Made by a program: the position numbers and the translations under genes. A stretch of DNA of 53,356 nt from Siminovitchia fordii DSM 16014 = CIP 108821 (GTDB taxonomy: Bacteria > Bacillota > Bacilli > Bacillales > Bacillaceae_C), in assembly GCF_000374565.1 (NCBI RefSeq), contig NZ_KB894690.1:150920-204275 (forward strand). Direction: 5' to 3'. Under the pieces are notes generated by a model. The model searched no databases. It was not told the origin of the DNA and saw only the letters and a list, made by a program, of their open reading frames with translations. Below are positions 7,065 through 37,505 of the stretch, piece after piece. Position 1 is the first letter of the stretch. Every line of letters starts with the position of its first letter.

Positions 7065-7147
7065 ATAGTCCGCTTGAGAGTGATAGGAATCGGTTTTGCT
7101 GATTAATATTGAACAAGGGGATGTTTATAAAGGTAATTGGACATCAG

Positions 7148-7178
7148 GACGGGCTTATCGCCCGTTCTTTGTTGTTTC
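7148..7178 (+). terminator. Terminator after the sortase gene
   Basis: A 7-bp GC-rich stem (GACGGGC at 7148-7154 with 7160-7166) and a 5-nt loop are followed by a T-rich tail. This is a typical intrinsic terminator about 85 bases past the sortase stop. Confidence 0.8.
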
Positions 7179-7183
7179 CGGTG

Positions 7184-7640
7184 GGTCACGATTGGGGGAG
7201 AAAGATGCCCATTTTAGGCGGTTTACCTAAAAAGCGGTCACGATTAGTGAGGCAAGGTGCCCGTTCCAGACGGTTTTTTTAAAAACCGGTCACGATTAAT
7301 GAGGAAAAGTGCCCGTTTTAGTCGGTTTTCAGTAAAAGCGGTCACCATTAGTGAGGAAAGATGCCCGTTTTAGTCGGTTTTCAGTAAAAGCGGGCACGAT
7401 TAGTGGAGAAAGATGCCCGTTTTAGTCGGTTTTCAGTAAAAGCGGTCACCATTAGTGAGGAAAGTTGCCCAATCTAGTCGGTTATCAGTAAAAACGGTCA
7501 CGATTAGTGAAGAAAGGTTCCCGTTTTATGCGGTTATCAGTAAAAGCGGTCACCATTAGTGGGGAAAGATGCCCATTTTAGTCGGTTTCCCTAAAAAGCG
7601 GTCACGATTGGTGAAGAAAGGTACCCGTGTTTTCCTTTGA
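7184..7640. repeat. 52-bp intergenic tandem repeat, 9 units
   Basis: Units start with GGTCAC(G/C)ATT at 7184, 7236, 7288, 7340, 7392, 7444, 7496, 7548 and 7600; the ninth is incomplete. Period is exactly 52 bp, not a multiple of three, and no convincing gene crosses it. Within units, TGCCCGTTTT and AAAAGCGG(T/G)CA form an inverted repeat, so each unit can fold into a hairpin, and paired changes across it are visible in some copies. The rest of the 7065-7749 gap holds the sortase terminator, this array and the terminator of the next gene. Function unknown; it is a minisatellite-like array, not CRISPR. Confidence 0.92.
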
Positions 7641-7694
7641 GGAAATACCCTAAATCAAATAGGTGTAGTACTTAGAGGGGGACAGTGTACAGGG

Positions 7695-7735
7695 GAAAAA
7701 AGAGAAATAAAAAATGCCCCCGGTTATTGGAAGCA
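7695..7735 (-). terminator. Terminator of the DUF420 gene
   Basis: On the minus strand TGCTTCC and GGGGGCA (7729-7735 with 7715-7721) pair, with two G-U pairs, and are followed by TTTTTTATTTCTC. Confidence 0.7.
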
Positions 7736-29649: not shown

Positions 29650-31281
29650 TTAACTTAATCCGAGGCGTTTCATTCGATTGTATAGGGTGGCTCTAGTGAT
29701 GCCGAGCTGTTTCGCGCAATGGGCTTTATTTCCCTTAGCGATTCTTAATGCCCGCTCCAATACTCCCTTTTCATGTATATCCATCTCTTCCTGGAGAGGG
29801 AGAATTTCTTCCTTTTCACTCGTTCGCCCGTCATTTATTTGAGCCTGATTAATCACTCGTCCATTTGAATTAAAAGGCAAGTATTCTGTTTTTATCAGCC
29901 CATCGACTGCAAAAACAACTAGGCGCTCAATGACATTCCGGAGCTCTCGAATATTCCCCGGCCAGTCGTATTGGAGTAGAGCATGCATGATATCTGATGG
30001 GAATCGGTGAATCGGCCGTTTATATCGAATGGACAATTCTTTAAAAAAATGGCTTGTCAGTTCAACGATATCTTCTTTTCTTTCCCTTAACGGTGGAATT
30101 TGTATGCTGACCACATTCAATCTATAAAATAAATCTTCGCGGAATTTCCCGTCTTCGACAAGCTCTGCCAAATCGCGGTTTGTAGCAGCAATAACACGAA
30201 AATCGATATCTATTTCTTGTTCTCCCCCGATTCGGTAAAACTTACGCTCTTGTAATACCCGTAACAGCTTTACTTGCATATCCAGCGGCATTTCACCGAT
30301 TTCATCTAAAAAAAGCGTTCCTCCTTTCGCTAGTTCTACTTTTCCTTTTTTCCCTTTTTGGCTGGCACCAGAAAAAGCTCCTTTTTCATAGCCGAACATT
30401 TCACTTTCAAATAATGATTCCGGAATCGCACCGCAGTTAACGGGGATGAAAGGGGCCTCTTTCAGTTCACTTGCCTCATGAATGGCCTTGGCAAACACTT
30501 CTTTGCCTACCCCGCTTTCACCCATAATCAGGACAGTGGACTTTACTCCGCAAACTTTTCTGGCAAATTCAACTGTTTTTTGAAGGGCAAGGCTTTTTCC
30601 TTTGATGGTACTGAAGGGGTCTTGAGTTTTTCTATACTTGGCAACTTCCTGCTCGAGACGATGGACTTCCGTTGACATGTTGAATAACTTTTCATTAAGA
30701 AGCACATGGCTTGTAACATCTGTTTCAGAGACTACAGCCCCGATGATTTCTCCGTCGCAAAGAACGGGATTGGAGTTGATCAGCACAAACAAGTCGGATC
30801 TGGGCTGGTGCTGATGATGGGCAATGCTTTTTCCCTTATGGAGGGATTCCAGTATTTCAAGCTTTTCCGGTTCAAAAAAATCGGTTATTTTTCGACTCAA
30901 AATTTCATTTTGTTTGATGGAAAAAATCTTTTCTGCACCTTCGGTCCATGTTTTTACCCGTTCCTCCTTATCAATGACGGTTACGGATGAGTCGGTTGTT
31001 TGAATAACGGTCGTATAAAAAGCTTTCAATTGCCTGTATAAGATGTAAAAAATTTGGATGATTTCAGAGGCTGACACAGTTCCAACCGGCTGATTTTGCT
31101 CATCCAGGATGACAATTGAGGAAGCCTCCTGAAACGCTTGAATTAAGTCTTCCGTCGAGTCGTCTACGTGGACGGTTTTGTATGGTTGTTCCTTTTCCAT
31201 ATATAAAAACTGGTTGGTGTTTGATTTTATTTTCAATGCTTCTTTTAGAATATCTTCAATGGATGGAAGTGAAAAAGCCAT
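29650..31281 (-). CDS. Sigma-54-dependent transcriptional activator, probable hydroxyproline regulator
   Basis: A 543-residue enhancer-binding protein: CBS-like segment about 35-80, PAS domain about 90-200, AAA+ domain 225-465 (Walker A GESGVGKE 254-261; sigma-54 contact loop GAFSGA 301-306; Walker B GGTLFLDEIGE; FYRLNV), and a Fis-type HTH 500-543 (AKQLGITRATLYNRMKRLG). The contact loop has Ser where most members have Thr (GAFTGA). GGGAGG eight bases before the ATG. It sits between two hydroxyproline units that each have a sigma-54-like promoter, so it is the likely activator of both; the ligand sensed by the N-terminal part is unknown. Confidence 0.9.
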   Translation of the reverse strand: MAFSLPSIEDILKEALKIKSNTNQFLYMEKEQPYKTVHVDDSTEDLIQAFQEASSIVILDEQNQPVGTVSASEIIQIFYILYRQLKAFYTTVIQTTDSSVTVIDKEERVKTWTEGAEKIFSIKQNEILSRKITDFFEPEKLEILESLHKGKSIAHHQHQPRSDLFVLINSNPVLCDGEIIGAVVSETDVTSHVLLNEKLFNMSTEVHRLEQEVAKYRKTQDPFSTIKGKSLALQKTVEFARKVCGVKSTVLIMGESGVGKEVFAKAIHEASELKEAPFIPVNCGAIPESLFESEMFGYEKGAFSGASQKGKKGKVELAKGGTLFLDEIGEMPLDMQVKLLRVLQERKFYRIGGEQEIDIDFRVIAATNRDLAELVEDGKFREDLFYRLNVVSIQIPPLRERKEDIVELTSHFFKELSIRYKRPIHRFPSDIMHALLQYDWPGNIRELRNVIERLVVFAVDGLIKTEYLPFNSNGRVINQAQINDGRTSEKEEILPLQEEMDIHEKGVLERALRIAKGNKAHCAKQLGITRATLYNRMKRLGLS

Positions 31282-31376
31282 TTAGCTGCCTCCCGTGAGT
31301 AAAATTTTTTATACAGTGTCTATTTAATTATACATCCACTGTTTAATTTTTTAAATGTTCTTATAAAATAAAGCCG

Positions 31377-31555
31377 TTTAACTTCATTCAGCAGAAGTCT
31401 CCCAATTCTGTAAGTGGTGAGATGAATGCATATTGGTATTCCGTTCAGTGGGGGTTCAAACCCCGGCTGAATAAAGTTAAAGCCTCCGGCGGATGCCACA
31501 GATTTTCAGAGGAAATTTATCGAGCGGAGCTCGATAAAATCTGGGCGCAAACACG
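31377..31555 (+). repeat. Structured ~178-bp element, copy 1
   Basis: Roughly 85-90% identical by eye to 36357-36532, same orientation. Foldable parts in order: CATTC/GAATG enclosing a CCACTT-type hairpin (31385-31429); TTCAG/CTGAA enclosing GGGG/CCCC (31444-31470); CAGATTTT/AAAATCTG (31499-31542) enclosing the 19-base palindrome TATCGAGCGGAGCTCGATA (31518-31536). Lies directly upstream of the sigma-54 promoter of the hydroxyproline genes. Could be a leader RNA, an activator-binding region or a mobile relic. Confidence 0.85.
31518..31536. promoter_or_regulatory. Palindrome, candidate upstream activator site
   Basis: TATCGAGC-GGA-GCTCGATA is a perfect 8-bp dyad, centred about 60 bases upstream of the -24 of the sigma-54 promoter, a usable distance for an enhancer-binding protein. 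Copy 2 of the element keeps it with one mismatch (36495-36513). Confidence 0.45.
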
Positions 31556-31583
31556 CCAAGGCGCATTTGATCGAGCATACGCA

Positions 31584-31600
31584 ATGGCACAATCCTTGCA
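31584..31600 (+). promoter_or_regulatory. Sigma-54 promoter of the DAO-epimerase-symporter unit
   Basis: ATGGCACAATCCTTGCA matches the -24/-12 consensus TGGCAC-N5-TTGCA exactly, GG (31586-31587) and GC (31598-31599) being 10 bases apart. Predicted start near 31611, ahead of the ribosome site AAAGGAGGG at 31619. Confidence 0.85.
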
Positions 31601-31632
31601 AATATAGTTAGGCAACGAAAGGAGGGACAGTA

Positions 31633-32808
31633 TTGAAGCATACCGACGTATTGGTGATTGGCGGCGGGATTATTGGCTGTGCGATCGCTTATTACGTATC
31701 CAAATCAGGGCGGCAAGTGACTATTCTCGAAAAAAGGGAATTTGTCAGTGGGACGTCTTCCAAATGTGACGGAAACATTTTGGCGATTGATAAAGATCCC
31801 GGCTTTGACAGCCAAATGTCCCTGGTCAGCCAAAAGCTGGTGGATCAACTGTCAAAAGAATTGAACTATCCCTTTGAATACCGTGCACCAGGAAGCATTC
31901 TTGTCTGTGAGTCGGAGGAAGAAATGGAAGCAGCTCAGCAGTGGGTAGATAGGCAAAAGGCAGCAGGACTGCCTTTCCGGATATTGGATCGCGAAGACAT
32001 TCGCCAGGAATCAAAGTACTTTGCCGATGATCTGCTAGGTGGTTTGGAATGTGCTACGGATTCAACCATTAATCCCTATATGCTCGCTTTTGCTTTACTG
32101 GAAAGCGCACAAAACTATGGAGCTGAAGCTTGGAAACGAACCGAAGTAAAAAGTATAAAAAAAGAACCAGATGGAGGGTTTAGAGTAGAAGCTTCGAATG
32201 GCGATTTTAAGGCTAATCAAGTGGTAAATGCATGTGGTGTCTGGGCACCTCGAATTGGAGAAATGTTAGGACTTTCCATTCCAATTCAGCCAAGGAAAGG
32301 GCATATTATTGTTGCTTCCAGACAGGAACATGTCGGCTCCCGCAAGGTAATGGAATTCGGCTACTTGATTTCTAAGTTTGGAGGGCAGCGGCGAGTGGAT
32401 TCACTCACCGAAAAGTACGGAGTGGCCCTTGTGTTTGAACCGACGGAAAGTCAAAACTTTCTTATCGGAAGCAGCAGGGAGTTTGTCGGCTTTGATACGA
32501 GAGTGAAAAATGAAGTCATTGAGTGCATTGCGAGAAGGGCGATCCGTTTTTATCCGAAGATGGCGGATATGATGATGATACGTTCCTACGCCGGTCTGCG
32601 TCCATACACAGAAGATCATCTACCAATCGTTTCCCATGTGGATGAAGTCCCAGGCTTTTACATAGCGGCAGGCCATGAAGGGGATGGGATCAGCCTTTCG
32701 GCTGTGACCGGAAAAGTGCTTGAAGAGATGCTTAATGAAAAGGGAACGTGCATTCCTGTTGATCCGCTCCGCTATAACCGGTTTTCGAAAAAGGTGGTGA
32801 GTCGATGA
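31633..32808 (+). CDS. DAO-family FAD oxidoreductase, beta (HcnC-like) subunit of a probable D-hydroxyproline dehydrogenase
   Basis: A 391-residue flavoprotein with the N-terminal FAD motif VIGGGIIGCAIAYYVSKSG, the DAO-family central part (AGSILVCESEEEM; VVNACGVWAP), and RSYAGLRPYTEDHLPIV...GFYIAAGHEGDGISLS near the end. It resembles HcnC, glycine oxidase and the beta subunit of proline/D-hydroxyproline dehydrogenases. It probably forms the substrate site of the complex whose other subunits are encoded divergently at 27770-29596. TTG start, seven bases after GGAGGG. Overlaps the epimerase gene by 4 bases. Confidence 0.87.
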   Translation: MKHTDVLVIGGGIIGCAIAYYVSKSGRQVTILEKREFVSGTSSKCDGNILAIDKDPGFDSQMSLVSQKLVDQLSKELNYPFEYRAPGSILVCESEEEMEAAQQWVDRQKAAGLPFRILDREDIRQESKYFADDLLGGLECATDSTINPYMLAFALLESAQNYGAEAWKRTEVKSIKKEPDGGFRVEASNGDFKANQVVNACGVWAPRIGEMLGLSIPIQPRKGHIIVASRQEHVGSRKVMEFGYLISKFGGQRRVDSLTEKYGVALVFEPTESQNFLIGSSREFVGFDTRVKNEVIECIARRAIRFYPKMADMMMIRSYAGLRPYTEDHLPIVSHVDEVPGFYIAAGHEGDGISLSAVTGKVLEEMLNEKGTCIPVDPLRYNRFSKKVVSR

Positions 32809-33842
32809 AGGCACATAAGGTGTTTACAACCATTGATACACATACGGGAGGGAACCCGACAAGGACTTTGATCAGCGGTCTTCCTGAATTGAAAGGAAGC
32901 ACTATGTCAGAGAAAATGCTTTATATGAAAAAAGAATATGATTGGATTCGAAAGCTGCTCATGAATGAACCAAGGGGACATGATGTTATGTCTGGAGTGT
33001 TGCTTACGGATCCTTGCCATCCTGAAGCTGACCTCGGTGTGATTTATATTGAAACAGGCGGATATTTGCCGATGTGCGGACACGATACGATAGGTGTCTG
33101 TACTGCTTTGATTGAGACGGGAATCATTGAAGCGAAAGAACCTGTCACTACTTTAAAACTGGATACGCCAGCAGGAGTGGTGGAAGTAGAAATCAGGGTT
33201 GAGAACGGGAAGGCCAAAGAAGTGTCATTCTGCAATGTACCGGCTTTTTTGTTGAGAAGAGTCTCAGTTGACGTGGAAGGAATTGGAAAAGTAAAAGCAG
33301 ATATAGCCTATGGAGGCAATTTCTACGCCATCATTGACGCAAAGTCAATCGGGATTGAGCTGATTCCTGAAAACGCCTCCACGATAATCGATCAGGCGAT
33401 TACAATCAGAAACACCATCAATGAGCAGATAGAGGTTGTCCATCCGAAATATCCTTTCATCAATGGATTAACCCATATAGAGTTTTTTACAGATCCAACA
33501 AACGAAAAGGCGGATGTGAAAAATACCGTTGTCGTCCCGCCTGGGGGAATAGATCGTTCACCTTGCGGAACTGGAACTTCAGCCAAACTAGCGGTTCTTT
33601 ATGCCAATCAGGAAATTGTCGTAGGAGAAGAGTTCGTACACGAAAGCATTGTTGGCTCTTTGTTTAAAGGACGCGTCTTGGAAACAACAAGCGTAAATGG
33701 GCTGGAAGCAGTCGTAACGAACATCTCAGGATCTGCTTGGCTGATGGGCATGCATCGCTTCTTCTACAACGAAGAAGATCCGTTAAAAGAAGGTTTTCTC
33801 CTCATTCCGCCAATGGAACATGAAAGGGAGGAAGTGAAATGA
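32805..33842 (+). CDS. 4-hydroxyproline 2-epimerase (proline racemase family)
   Basis: A 345-residue enzyme with both catalytic cysteines of the cofactor-independent racemase: Cys91 in LPMCGHDTIG and Cys254 in RSPCGTGTSA. These two act as the acid/base pair that inverts C2. In this context it should convert trans-4-hydroxy-L-proline to cis-4-hydroxy-D-proline, the first step of the pathway; proline racemase activity is the alternative, and the Cys/Cys pair fits both. GTGGTGAG ribosome site; start overlaps the DAO stop (ATGA) and its stop overlaps the next start (ATGA). Confidence 0.9.
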   Translation: MKAHKVFTTIDTHTGGNPTRTLISGLPELKGSTMSEKMLYMKKEYDWIRKLLMNEPRGHDVMSGVLLTDPCHPEADLGVIYIETGGYLPMCGHDTIGVCTALIETGIIEAKEPVTTLKLDTPAGVVEVEIRVENGKAKEVSFCNVPAFLLRRVSVDVEGIGKVKADIAYGGNFYAIIDAKSIGIELIPENASTIIDQAITIRNTINEQIEVVHPKYPFINGLTHIEFFTDPTNEKADVKNTVVVPPGGIDRSPCGTGTSAKLAVLYANQEIVVGEEFVHESIVGSLFKGRVLETTSVNGLEAVVTNISGSAWLMGMHRFFYNEEDPLKEGFLLIPPMEHEREEVK

Positions 33843-34774
33843 ACCTTCAAAAAATATACACTGCAACAGACGTACACATAGCAGGTGAAGTGTTTCGGAT
33901 CATTAATGATGTACCTTTTGTTCAATATGGAAGTTTAAAAGAGTTCGATGAGCAGCTGCCAAGCGTATTCTCGGAAGAGATGGCACTTTTACTTAATGAG
34001 CCGCGGGGGTTTGCGGGGATAAACGGATGTCTGGTCGTTCCTCCGTTCACCGAGAGTGGTGATGTGGCAGCCGTCTTTTTTAACCATGAAGGTACATTGC
34101 CTATTCATTATGGAGGGGTTATTGCAATAGTTACTGCAATGCTTGAAAGCGGCAGATTGCAGGAGAAAGCAGCTGGTGAGTATTACATCGAAACGGTACA
34201 GGGTGTGATTCCTGTGATTGCAGTAAAGGAAAAAGAACAAGTTGTCTCTGCAAGAGTGGCACTTGGAGAATGTTCTGTGATTAAAACTGATGTTCCGCTG
34301 CTTGATGAATCGTATACAATCGTTCAGGCGGATCAACGGTATGCTCTGTTTGATAATAAAGCACTGGGTTTAAAAATTGAGCTCAGTGAGCTTTCCGCTT
34401 TAAAAAAGTGGGGGAAAAACAACTTACAGGAACTAAAAACTAATTCTGACATACAAGGCATCATACTGATGGATGATGAAGCACTGGTACAAGGAAAAAT
34501 TAAGACCGTCACCTTTCGGAAGGATGGTTGGATTGTCCGATCACCGGGCTTTGGACCAACAACAGCTTGTTTTGCATCCCTTTTATCAAGAGATGGAATA
34601 GAAGTGGAACAAACTCTATTAAATGAAAGCGTTTACGGAAGCTTTCTTGAATCCAAGGCACATTATGACGGGAAAGTTCAATTCTCTGTGAATGCAAGAG
34701 CATTTATTACCGGATTGCAAACCTTTGTACTCGATCCGACGGATCCGTTGCCGAAGGGGTTTTTAATTAAATAA
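33839..34774 (+). CDS. Proline-racemase-fold paralogue lacking both catalytic cysteines
   Basis: A 311-residue protein aligned end to end with its neighbour: start TATDVHIAGEVFRI against TIDTHTGGNPTRT, LLNEPRG, then LPIHYGGVIA where the epimerase has LPMCGHDTIG, and RSPGFGPTT where it has RSPCGTGTS. So Cys91 corresponds to His90 and Cys254 to Gly237. Trans-3-hydroxyproline dehydratases replace one cysteine with Thr, but loss of both is not the pattern of a known active class. The frame is intact, uses normal codons and is coupled by ATGA overlap. It may be a partner of the epimerase, a binding protein or an enzyme with other chemistry. Confidence 0.85.
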   Translation: MNLQKIYTATDVHIAGEVFRIINDVPFVQYGSLKEFDEQLPSVFSEEMALLLNEPRGFAGINGCLVVPPFTESGDVAAVFFNHEGTLPIHYGGVIAIVTAMLESGRLQEKAAGEYYIETVQGVIPVIAVKEKEQVVSARVALGECSVIKTDVPLLDESYTIVQADQRYALFDNKALGLKIELSELSALKKWGKNNLQELKTNSDIQGIILMDDEALVQGKIKTVTFRKDGWIVRSPGFGPTTACFASLLSRDGIEVEQTLLNESVYGSFLESKAHYDGKVQFSVNARAFITGLQTFVLDPTDPLPKGFLIK

Positions 34775-34790
34775 ATTTTAGGGGGAGCCC

Positions 34791-36263
34791 ATGATGGAAG
34801 GAGTCATTAATTGGCTGGTCGATCAAGTATGGGGGACTGGTCTAGTTGTTTTTGCACTTGGAGCAGGACTATTTTTCTCTATTACGACTCGTTTTGTTCA
34901 AATTCGGTATTTTAAAGAAATGATTCTGTTGTTGTTTGAGGGAAAAAGCTCCGAGAACGGTATCTCCTCTTTTCAGGCATTTTGTTTAGCTTTGTCAGGC
35001 CGTGTAGGGGTAGGGAATATCGCAGGTGTGGCAACCGCCATTGCATACGGCGGACCGGGAGCGGTTTTCTGGATGTGGGTCATGGCGTTGTTGGGCGGTG
35101 CGAGTGCCTTTATTGAATCGACGCTTGCACAAGTATTTAAGAGCAAGGTGGGAAATGCATATCGCGGGGGAACTCCTTATTTTATTGAAAAAGGGTTAAA
35201 TCTCAAGTGGTTTGCTGTAATCATGGCTGTGGTTGTCACTATTTCCTACGGATTCTTAACACCTGGAGTACAGGCAAATAATATTGCAGCAGGAATGGAA
35301 AATGCCTTTGGCTTAAACAAGACAGTTACCGGAATATTCTTGGTTGCTTTACTTGGAGTAATTATTTTTGGCGGTCTAAAACGCATTGCCAGTGTATCGC
35401 AAACCGTTGTTCCGTTTATGGCGGTTGGCTATGTGGTCGTTACTTTTATTGTATTAGGCTTGAATTATGACAAAGTGCCTGGGATGCTTTCCTTGATCTT
35501 CACTAGTGCTTTCGGATCCAATCAAATCTTTGGCGGAATAGTAGGAACAGCGATTGCCTGGGGGGTCAGAAGGGCCATATTCTCCAATGTTGCCGGTTGC
35601 GGGGAAGCGACATATAGTTCTGCGGCTGCTGAAGTGTCACATCCCGCTAAACAAGGATTAGTTCAAGCTTTCTCAGTCTATATTGATACAATTTTGGTTT
35701 GTACGGCAACGGGTCTAATGATTCTGGTAACGGGGATGTATAATGTGACGCCGGAGGGAAGAGATCCGATTGTTCAGACGTTGCCCGGCATCGAGGCGGG
35801 TCCTGCCTATACTCAAATGGCGGTCGAAACAGTGCTGCCTGGATTCGGTCCCGGGTTTGTGTCCATAGCTATTTTCTTCTTTGCGTTTACTACGTTGATG
35901 GCTTATTACTATATCGCAGAAACAACGTTGATCTATTTGAGCGGAAAGCGAGAATTGCCTTGGTTGAAAACAACGCTAAAAATTGTCATGCTCCTCATGA
36001 TCTTTATAGGCAGCGTTAAATCAGCATCTATGATGTGGGCGCTGGGTGATATCGGATTCGGATCTATGGCATGGCTCAGCCTGCTTGCGATTTTACTTCT
36101 CACTAAACCGACTTTAAAAGTTTTAAAAGATTATGAGACTCAGAAAAAAGCAGGTAAAGATCCTGTTTTTGATCCGATTCAGGCTGGCATAAGCGGCGCT
36201 GATTTTTGGGAGGAAAAATGTAAACAGGCTCGTATAGCCAAAGAAAAGAGTTCAATTGGATAG
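34791..36263 (+). CDS. AGCS-family sodium:amino-acid symporter, probable hydroxyproline uptake
   Basis: A 490-residue transporter with about ten to twelve membrane segments and AGCS hallmarks: ALSGRVGVGNIAGVATAIAYGGPGAVFWMW, GGTPYFIEKGL, WGVRRAIFSNVAGCGEATYSSAAAEV. AGCS members (AlsT/GlnT type) take up alanine, glycine or glutamine with sodium. Position inside the hydroxyproline operon suggests (hydroxy)proline as substrate; not shown by sequence. AGGGGGAG precedes two adjacent ATGs (34791, 34794); the second has the more usual spacing. Confidence 0.88.
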   Translation: MMEGVINWLVDQVWGTGLVVFALGAGLFFSITTRFVQIRYFKEMILLLFEGKSSENGISSFQAFCLALSGRVGVGNIAGVATAIAYGGPGAVFWMWVMALLGGASAFIESTLAQVFKSKVGNAYRGGTPYFIEKGLNLKWFAVIMAVVVTISYGFLTPGVQANNIAAGMENAFGLNKTVTGIFLVALLGVIIFGGLKRIASVSQTVVPFMAVGYVVVTFIVLGLNYDKVPGMLSLIFTSAFGSNQIFGGIVGTAIAWGVRRAIFSNVAGCGEATYSSAAAEVSHPAKQGLVQAFSVYIDTILVCTATGLMILVTGMYNVTPEGRDPIVQTLPGIEAGPAYTQMAVETVLPGFGPGFVSIAIFFFAFTTLMAYYYIAETTLIYLSGKRELPWLKTTLKIVMLLMIFIGSVKSASMMWALGDIGFGSMAWLSLLAILLLTKPTLKVLKDYETQKKAGKDPVFDPIQAGISGADFWEEKCKQARIAKEKSSIG

Positions 36264-36581
36264 AAAAAACTTACCTGTCCAGTTCTGTACTGACCGTTCT
36301 TGTAATCTTTTTGAATACCCTGACTCCCTACTGTGTGTATTCTAAGGACCTGATTTTTTAACTTCATTCAGCAGAAATCTCCCACTTCTGTAAGTGGTGA
36401 GGGTGAATGCATATTGGTATTCCATTCAGAGATTAAACCCCGGCTGAATAAAGTCAAGGTCTCCGGCGGATGCCACAGATTCTCAGAGGAAACTTATCGA
36501 GCGGAGCTCGAGAAAATCTGGGAACAAATACGGTCATGCGGATAGATAAGAATGAAGTAATAGAATCATTAGGAGGAATAG
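36264..36581. other. Gap between symporter and deaminase genes
   Basis: 318 bases holding the second structured element (36357-36532). No clear terminator, sigma-54 site or sigma-A promoter was found, so the downstream genes may be read through from 31611 or be started from within the element. Confidence 0.5.
36357..36532 (+). repeat. Structured ~178-bp element, copy 2
   Basis: Direct repeat of 31377-31555. Outer pairings CATTC/GAATG, TTCAG/CTGAA and most of CAGATT/AATCTG are kept; the GGGG half of the inner GGGG/CCCC hairpin is lost and the 19-base palindrome has one mismatch. The first hairpin (CCACTT/AAGTGG) pairs better here than in copy 1. Lies about 50 bases upstream of the deaminase gene. 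Confidence 0.85.
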
Positions 36582-37505
36582 ATGATGAAAAATTTAAAAG
36601 GCGTATTTCCAGTATTGATTACACCGATGCACCAAGACGAAACGATCAATTGGGAAGGTTTTAGTAACAATATTGAGTATTTCATTAACCAAGGTGTCGA
36701 TGGACTTGCTATCAATGGAAGCACAGGAGAATTTGTAAGTTTGACGAAAGAGGAGCGATTTAAGGCTGTTGAAGTGGCTGTTGAGCAGGTTGGCGGCAGA
36801 ATCCCTCTTATCGTGGGAACTGCAGCGGAAACTACGGAGGATGCGATCGAATACACTCTGCAGGCTGAGAAGGCGGGAGCAGATGCCGCACTACTCATCA
36901 ATTCATATTACGCTCATCCAAAGGAAGAAGAGATTTACGAACATTTTAAGGCTGTGGCTGAATCTGTGTCCTTTCCAGTTATGATCTATAACAACCCTTT
37001 CACATCAGGAGTGAACATTTCGGTTGATACAATCCTTCGGACAGGCAAAAATGTGAGGAATATTACGCACGTCAAAGAATCCAGCGGAGAAATCAGGAAC
37101 GTTCGTGACATTTCTCGCCAAGGCAAAGGATTTATCAAAACATTCTGTGGAGCGGACGATATGGTTCTTGAATCGTTCATGGTCGGGGCGGAAGGTTGGA
37201 TTTCCGTTGGGGGGAACATCGCACCGCGGACGGCCAAGGAAATGTATGATGCCTATATGGCAGGGGACATCGATCGTGCATGGGAATTGTATGATAAACT
37301 GCTTCCCCTTTTGAACTTCCTTGAGGGTTCCGGAAAGTATGTCCAAATTACCAAACATGCTATGGACTTGAAGGGGCTCGCCGGCGGCCCGGCCCGTAGG
37401 CCGCGTCTTGGATTGAACCAGGAAGAGCAGGAAACACTTAAAAGGTTAATGGAGCAGTTGGATGTTCTGGAAGCATCAACGATCCACGGAGGGGAAGGAA
37501 AATGA
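36582..37505 (+). CDS. DapA-family pyrroline-4-hydroxy-2-carboxylate deaminase
   Basis: A 307-residue aldolase-superfamily enzyme: Schiff-base Lys165 (THVKESSG), Tyr136 (MIYNNP), GSTGE at 46-50 and the usual TIM-barrel length. In hydroxyproline clusters the DapA-like member (LhpC/HypD type) deaminates and dehydrates cis-4-hydroxy-pyrroline-2-carboxylate to 2-oxoglutarate semialdehyde. Real dihydrodipicolinate synthase is unlikely in this setting. AGGAGGA precedes the ATG pair at 36582/36585. Its stop overlaps the aldehyde dehydrogenase start. Confidence 0.88.
   Translation: MMKNLKGVFPVLITPMHQDETINWEGFSNNIEYFINQGVDGLAINGSTGEFVSLTKEERFKAVEVAVEQVGGRIPLIVGTAAETTEDAIEYTLQAEKAGADAALLINSYYAHPKEEEIYEHFKAVAESVSFPVMIYNNPFTSGVNISVDTILRTGKNVRNITHVKESSGEIRNVRDISRQGKGFIKTFCGADDMVLESFMVGAEGWISVGGNIAPRTAKEMYDAYMAGDIDRAWELYDKLLPLLNFLEGSGKYVQITKHAMDLKGLAGGPARRPRLGLNQEEQETLKRLMEQLDVLEASTIHGGEGK

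Follow-up and report, generated by a model that had tools for sequence, protein, structure and literature searches.

Two direct repeats at a hydroxyproline locus of Siminovitchia fordii are very probably copies of a gene-less mobile element of IS200/IS605 type

The hydroxyproline locus described here lies in a 53,356-nucleotide stretch of the genome of Siminovitchia fordii DSM 16014 = CIP 108821 (contig NZ_KB894690.1, positions 150,920 to 204,275 of the forward strand), which we call the window and whose coordinates are used throughout. Pfam matches place a divergent gene for a CBS-PAS-sigma54-activator (AAA+)-Fis helix-turn-helix regulator on the minus strand (29650..31281) and, on the plus strand, a gene for an FAD-dependent DAO-family oxidoreductase (31633..32808) and a DHDPS-family gene (36582..37505), the last being the one that an earlier reading of the bare sequence (the sequence-only reading) had called a deaminase. 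Ahead of each of the two plus-strand genes lies one copy of a structured repeat, at 31382..31571 (copy 1) and 36362..36547 (copy 2). We conclude, with a probability of roughly 0.92, that both stretches are copies of a gene-less mobile element that has spread by IS200/IS605-type (HUH-Y1) single-strand ('peel-and-paste') transposition. Such a mobile origin had been put forward in the sequence-only reading as the alternative to a regulatory role, and it is now strongly supported by empty sites and by an orientation that matches strand skew.

The two copies are in direct orientation and share 88.3% identity over 180 aligned positions (blastn), in keeping with the ~85-90% estimated previously, and the gap-free repeat families recovered were D6 (87% over 109 nt, spacing 4977 nt) and D9 (96% over 45 nt, spacing 4980 nt). 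Element boundaries were set from 11 usable copies in the window's own genome together with empty sites, and make copy 1 a 190-bp non-autonomous element on the plus strand which starts with CTTCATTCAGC, ends with GGCGCATTTGAT and follows a chromosomal TTTAA target site (31377..31381, plus strand) retained on its 5' side; the sequence-only reading therefore had both places right but set the ends slightly short. The 5' (left-end) domain of copy 1 (31382..31478, plus strand; helices 1-3 of the structure alignment, and sequence) has an outer stem of CTTCATTCAGC and GCTGAATAAAG with one C-A mismatch, in which the AA of the target is able to pair with the following TT, and this stem encloses a CTCCCAATT..AAGTGG hairpin and a GGGG-TTCAAA-CCCC hairpin. 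The 3' (right-end) domain (31479..31571, plus strand; helices 4-7) consists of a long hairpin GCCACAGATTTT..AAAATCTGGGC, whose inner palindrome TTTATCGAGC-GGA-GCTCGATAAA is perfect, as had been claimed, and a terminal CAAACACGCC/GGCGCATTTG hairpin, and it finishes in TTTGAT. The CCACTT-CTGT-AAGTGG hairpin, placed near 31400 in the sequence-only reading, is present in copy 2 but not in copy 1, where CCAATT makes the hairpin imperfect. Copy 2 (plus strand), identified by alignment to relatives and again preceded by TTTAA (36357..36361, plus strand; sequence and the same alignment), is older, has a degenerate right end and has an orthologous copy in the genus mate G002. Predicted folding of copy 1 (31377-31566) was far beyond that of shuffled sequences (z -5.3, with 0/200 shuffles as good), whilst that of copy 2 (36357-36543) was not (z -1.3, 15/200 as good). 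None of 4227 Rfam families matched the window at gathering score, a spurious mir-205 (E 0.19) being the only hit, and the earlier statement that no known riboswitch core is present thus stands.

The ends of the element are sharply defined. Of the distinct full copies with flanks (205 in all), TTTAAC is found at the start of 164 and TTTGAT at the end of 183. Candidate empty sites amounted to 28 rows, from which nine pairs were inspected and two counted as base-exact, L177/L178 (for copy 1) and L045/L171; these define the element as C...TTTGAT, placed 3' of TTTAA without target duplication. At the copy 1 site the empty orthologue in G002 reads GCCGTTTAA followed directly by CGAACATACGC. Compared by eye in aligned copies, the termini (CTTCATTC.. 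and ..GCATTTGAT) are not mutual inverted repeats, and palindromes lie near both of them (helices 1-2 and helix 7). At 190 nt the element is too short for a transposase and has no coding capacity, and no tnpA occurs in it among 230 full matches of the short form in the loci sampled (duplicates included), so that an autonomous IS200/IS605 insertion sequence was rejected as its identity. Site choice was assessed by counting TTTAA on the lagging-template strand, assigned from tile skew, of 8-kb loci: 11/120 occupied sites lay inside open reading frames (ORFs), compared with 1235/1757 empty ones, which is most simply read as selection against gene disruption. The TAA of TTTAA was the stop codon of the upstream ORF at 17/120 occupied and 12/1757 empty sites, an excess that is not wholly accounted for. 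In a set of 193 copies, the target's TAA doubles as the stop of the upstream frame in 30 (e.g. L301, L303).

Structural constraint on the element is supported by alignment A1, which comprises 38 sequences hand-picked for diversity from 218 plus the window copy and L034. A structure of 49 pairs was formed in 93.3% of cells, compared with 25-45% when slid and 91.2% in shuffles, two-sided changes were found in 49 cells versus 18 in shuffles, and the covariation score was reached by 0/500 shuffles; RNAalifold alone gave 35 pairs, four of them with two-sided changes. Compensatory base changes among homologues, on which the sequence-only reading had made its case depend, are therefore present, including in the hairpins near both ends. 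They do not single out an RNA function, since hairpins are needed for single-strand transposition, which explains compensatory changes as well as an RNA would.

In the window's own genome (G000), 16 rows correspond to 15 places, two of them in the window, and these are 13 full or nearly full copies (both window copies included), one truncated copy and one decayed copy split over two rows. Two direct copies some 5 kb apart could in themselves reflect a segmental duplication of this one locus without any mobility, an explanation that we consider scarcely credible, since this genome has the element at 15 places and orthologous sites are empty. Ten genes adjoining the other copies of this genome, chosen with a simple ORF caller and then tested with Pfam, have no common theme: they encode a histidine kinase, SBF and MFS transporters, a flagellar rod protein, a pyruvate:ferredoxin oxidoreductase, a sulphite/nitrite reductase, a carbon-nitrogen hydrolase, a metallo-beta-lactamase fold protein, one aldehyde dehydrogenase and one protein without a Pfam match. 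With the own genome included, element matches were found in 7/40 relatives, in 11/34 family genomes and in 8/159 order genomes, in 6/88 genera. In the six family genomes that have the element but no close homologue of the RAYT/TIRYT-like gene discussed below, rows numbered 15 in G000, five in G041, two each in G043 and G045 and one each in G040 and G023, and one order genome (G156) holds at least five copies. About 168 distinct copies were counted in the Siminovitchia terrae loci sampled, and an exact-core scan of genome contigs returned at least 117 stretches, mostly from this species among the matches listed. The phages and plasmids searched gave no match to the element, and viral contigs contained no exact match to one 41-base pattern of it. 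The element family is thus abundant in Siminovitchia and spotty across Bacillales. Among the entries listed by literature searches there was no description of this repeat, which is weak evidence as subscription papers were outside its reach. Longer versions occur at L041, L047 and L058 (G030), with ~55-60 extra nt between the parts matching query positions 1-141 and 152-195. A relative with the same stems and different loops lies at L106:4046-4258, on a contig labelled Arthrobacter beigongshangensis; this 8-kb stretch has a G+C content of 43%, and the label or contig may be a mix-up.

Taking the two window copies alone, a shared regulatory role is plausible, as they precede two gene sets, copy 1 has a strong predicted fold and compensatory changes are present: the element would be a leader RNA responsive to hydroxyproline or proline, or a regulator site duplicated for both gene segments. 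The promoter architecture and the relatives speak otherwise, and we judge this very improbable. A sigma-54 -24/-12 promoter of the DAO gene, TGGCACAATCCTTGCA (31585..31600, plus strand; motif search and alignment), lies 3' of copy 1; it is the sole mismatch-free match in the window to TGGCACN5TTGCW and is recognisable in 4/4 aligned genomes. With the divergent CBS/PAS sigma-54 activator gene beside it, the hydroxyproline gene cluster is probably under sigma-54 control. Copy 1, being upstream of this promoter, is outside the transcript that would start there. Upstream again, a block conserved in the alignment, TATACAGTGTC..CACTGTTTAA (31310..31346, plus strand), may be the activator (enhancer) site, and copy 1 separates it from the -24 box, taking the distance from ~48 to ~238 nt. 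All three genus mates with a DAO gene close by sequence (G002, G003 and G005) lack copy 1 despite conservation of the gene and the sigma-54 site. Copy 2 is common to the window and G002, whereas G003 and G005 showed no such copy ahead of the gene, the comparison with G005 being one in which the gene is just 57% identical and the copy 2 flank is too diverged to align. Moreover, other copies adjoin unrelated genes, and orientation follows replication where neighbouring genes disagree (see below). The sequence-only reading had looked to enrichment beside hydroxyproline genes, with copies scattered at unrelated loci as the opposite outcome, and it is the latter that genome searches returned; the shared hydroxyproline regulator that it proposed is not borne out. 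The presence of both copies at the hydroxyproline locus is incidental, copy 1 having inserted between the regulator gene and the sigma-54 promoter, and copy 2, which is older and decayed, between the symporter and DHDPS-family genes. Two further features of these sequences were recorded, namely one internal TAA in the DHDPS-family match of G003 (L186; G003:C31:29176-30075) and, in the window at 1-2353 and 7132-7703, dense repeats with units of 24, 51 and 52 nt plus blocks of ~300 nt.

Mobility of the IS200/IS605 type is further indicated by the orientation of the copies. In Firmicutes the leading strands are G-rich, and in order to score orientation the element strand was compared with the G-rich strand of the contig, which was taken as the lagging-strand template. 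For S. terrae, the copies scored were of at least 120 nt and the 8-kb tiles containing them also supplied the skew; some few copies lying at tile borders may have been counted twice. Element orientation agreed with contig GC skew in 168/176 copies (p 4e-40), or in 164/176 when the skew of each single 8-kb tile was used alone. Agreement was 71/71 where both neighbouring genes were co-directional with the element, and 48/49 where the neighbours were convergent or divergent. Tallies made by hand gave 20/24 scored copies for G049 (20 windows of 20 kb; p 0.0015) and 13/14 for the window's own genome (p 0.0018). With GC skew as the marker of replication direction, element orientation tracks replication, and for IS200/IS605 elements orientation is described as recapitulating the direction of replication (PMC5371812, in the text available).

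On this evidence, a Y1 (HUH) transposase acting in trans would recognise the end hairpins on a single-stranded lagging-strand template, the element strand would be excised as a circle, and the circle would enter another lagging-strand template immediately 3' of a TTTAA, duplicating no target sequence; the Y1 class of the enzyme and the circular intermediate are inferred. IS608, ISDra2 and other IS200/IS605 elements are alike in having a fixed short target, insertion 3' of it, no duplication, end hairpins and an orientation towards the lagging-strand template, whereas the 190-bp element carries neither tnpA nor tnpB, has TTTAA as its target and ends in TTTGAT. According to the accessible text of PMC7290912, elements of this group have no terminal inverted repeats, cause no target duplications and integrate 3' of a tetra- or pentanucleotide. 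The element fits the palindrome-associated transposable element (PATE) class as defined in the portion of PMC3119063 available, save that a relationship between its palindromes and those of one particular IS605-type transposon is only partly shown: the left end resembles, by eye, that of a TnpB element, and no match to the right end was seen. The PATEs of Haloquadratum walsbyi (PMC3119063), to which a PATE-like sequence in Halanaerobium (PMC7290912) can be added, have in common with it a lack of terminal inverted repeats and of target duplication, near-terminal palindromes, a length too short for a transposase and many copies. What differs is the occurrence of a 190-bp element in Bacillales, its elaborate 190-nt fold, its strong replication-strand orientation and a parent insertion sequence that was not identified. 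In copy number, this one family in S. terrae approximates all six PATE families of each Haloquadratum strain together (177 and 194, figures from the same part of PMC3119063). Bacillus cereus group repeats such as bcr1 resemble the element as non-coding repeats of 100-400 bp, with high copy number and a TTTAT motif in bcr1; they are, as far as the available text of PMC6542083 reports, restricted to that group, and bcr1 has TTTAT rather than TTTAA, a separation made by description and not by sequence. REP/REPIN and TIR repeats with their RAYT/TIRYT enzymes share a link to a Y1-type enzyme, a non-autonomous character and extragenic positions, but REPs measure 20-40 bp and carry a foot of GTAG or GTGG, neither of which the 190-bp element has (descriptions seen in part, PMC3733652 and PMC6006769). 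A REP/REPIN identity was rejected on the TTTAA and TTTGAT boundaries and on the different GGGG..CCCC palindromes that the RAYT-like gene discussed below carries.

Several observations weigh against IS200/IS605-type transposition of the element, or against the constraint on its structure. Pairs with two-sided changes numbered 7/49 against a shuffled mean of 6.7, and pair types 38 against a shuffled mean of 39, neither being an excess, and the two-sided changes mostly split two lineages and so represent few events. The other seven of the nine empty-site pairs inspected were diverged or aligned within neighbouring element copies. Where both neighbouring genes ran opposite to the element, just 10/16 copies agreed with replication (p 0.45 taken alone), and one IS605 family is reported, in the part of PMC7290912 seen, to have no strand preference (10/22 on the leading strand). 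No intact cognate transposase was found: the Y1_Tnp matches of the window's own genome are broken or partial, the same genome has no PF07282 (TnpB) match, and G156, with its five or more copies, has no Y1_Tnp match. Nor has the right end of the element a recognised counterpart in any autonomous element seen here.

It is quite possible, at somewhat short of even odds, that the element is what remains of an IS605/IS1341 element that carried TnpB, and that a TnpA of that family moves it in trans. The left end of an S. terrae TnpB element (L206, from ~270) shares CAGAAG-N-CTCCCACTTC..TAAGTGG..GAGATGAATG with the repeat, a likeness judged by eye after a motif scan, and PATEs are described as deriving from IS605-type elements (PMC3119063, in the portion available), but the right end, a hairpin followed by TTTGAT, is unlike the TnpB right ends found here (..AAGTGGGAG..GTTCAA). 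A search for longer copies returned five left ends without an adjacent right end, three of them at locus edges, one a 54-nt fragment and the fifth (L089) followed by a separate complete copy; none of the five was shown to bracket a transposase gene, and the loci sampled showed no autonomous copy that shares both ends. An IS200-type TnpA of the genus (L219) has a right end that also finishes in TTTGAT; the sequence flanking it on the left, however, points to TTGAT as the target, and no match is claimed.

Another potential source is a RAYT/TIRYT-like Y1 transposase of the genus (185 aa, L228:1456-2013), in which case the element would be a REP/TIR-like repeat. A homologue with 72% identity or more is present in 5/34 family genomes (G001, G002, G004, G022 and G049), all of which also have the element, and the protein weakly matches NF047646 REP_Tyr_transpos (73 bits, cut-off 80). 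This co-occurrence is explicable by relatedness alone, however, and six of the other 29 family genomes also have element rows, as does G156 despite the lack of a Y1_Tnp match. In 5/5 loci viewed the gene has GGGG..CCCC palindromes resembling GGGGGTCAGACCCCC on its flanks, and these also occur in seven sampled loci without the gene, so that other repeats seem likely to be its cognates. Three of the genomes with the gene (G001, G004 and G049) contain no pair of copies of at least 98% identity, the same as the window's own genome, which lacks it, a comparison confounded by uneven sampling, with 10 to 168 copies per genome. Mobilisation of the element by this enzyme therefore appears quite unlikely. 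The gene with its flanking GGGGGTCAGACCCCC-like palindromes was seen at L228:1456-2013 and at L243-L247. These palindromes fit the TIRYT motif GGGGWSAS as given in the available part of PMC3733652, and the FQ, YIHLNP and SS motifs of the L228 protein fit RAYT subclass 2.1, its NHIH being near the forms listed in the text seen of PMC6006769. No REP-like repeats were found for subclass 2.1 in a published survey, although some of its members are known to have terminal inverted repeats beside them. The mover is unlikely to be a Y1 enzyme for which no repeat of this sort has been described (e.g. one of RAYT/TIRYT subclass 2.1), or one so divergent that the Pfam Y1 model misses it; if it were, the search should turn to hosts like G156, which have several copies and in which no Y1 gene is recognisable.

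Recognition of the two stretches as copies of one element shows the hydroxyproline riboswitch to be a false lead and puts a defined mobile element in its place. It also poses a clean question, namely which Y1 enzyme moves an element that stands at ~168 copies in a single species. Given its orientation in S. terrae, the element could in addition be used to mark replication orientation and to reveal assembly errors.

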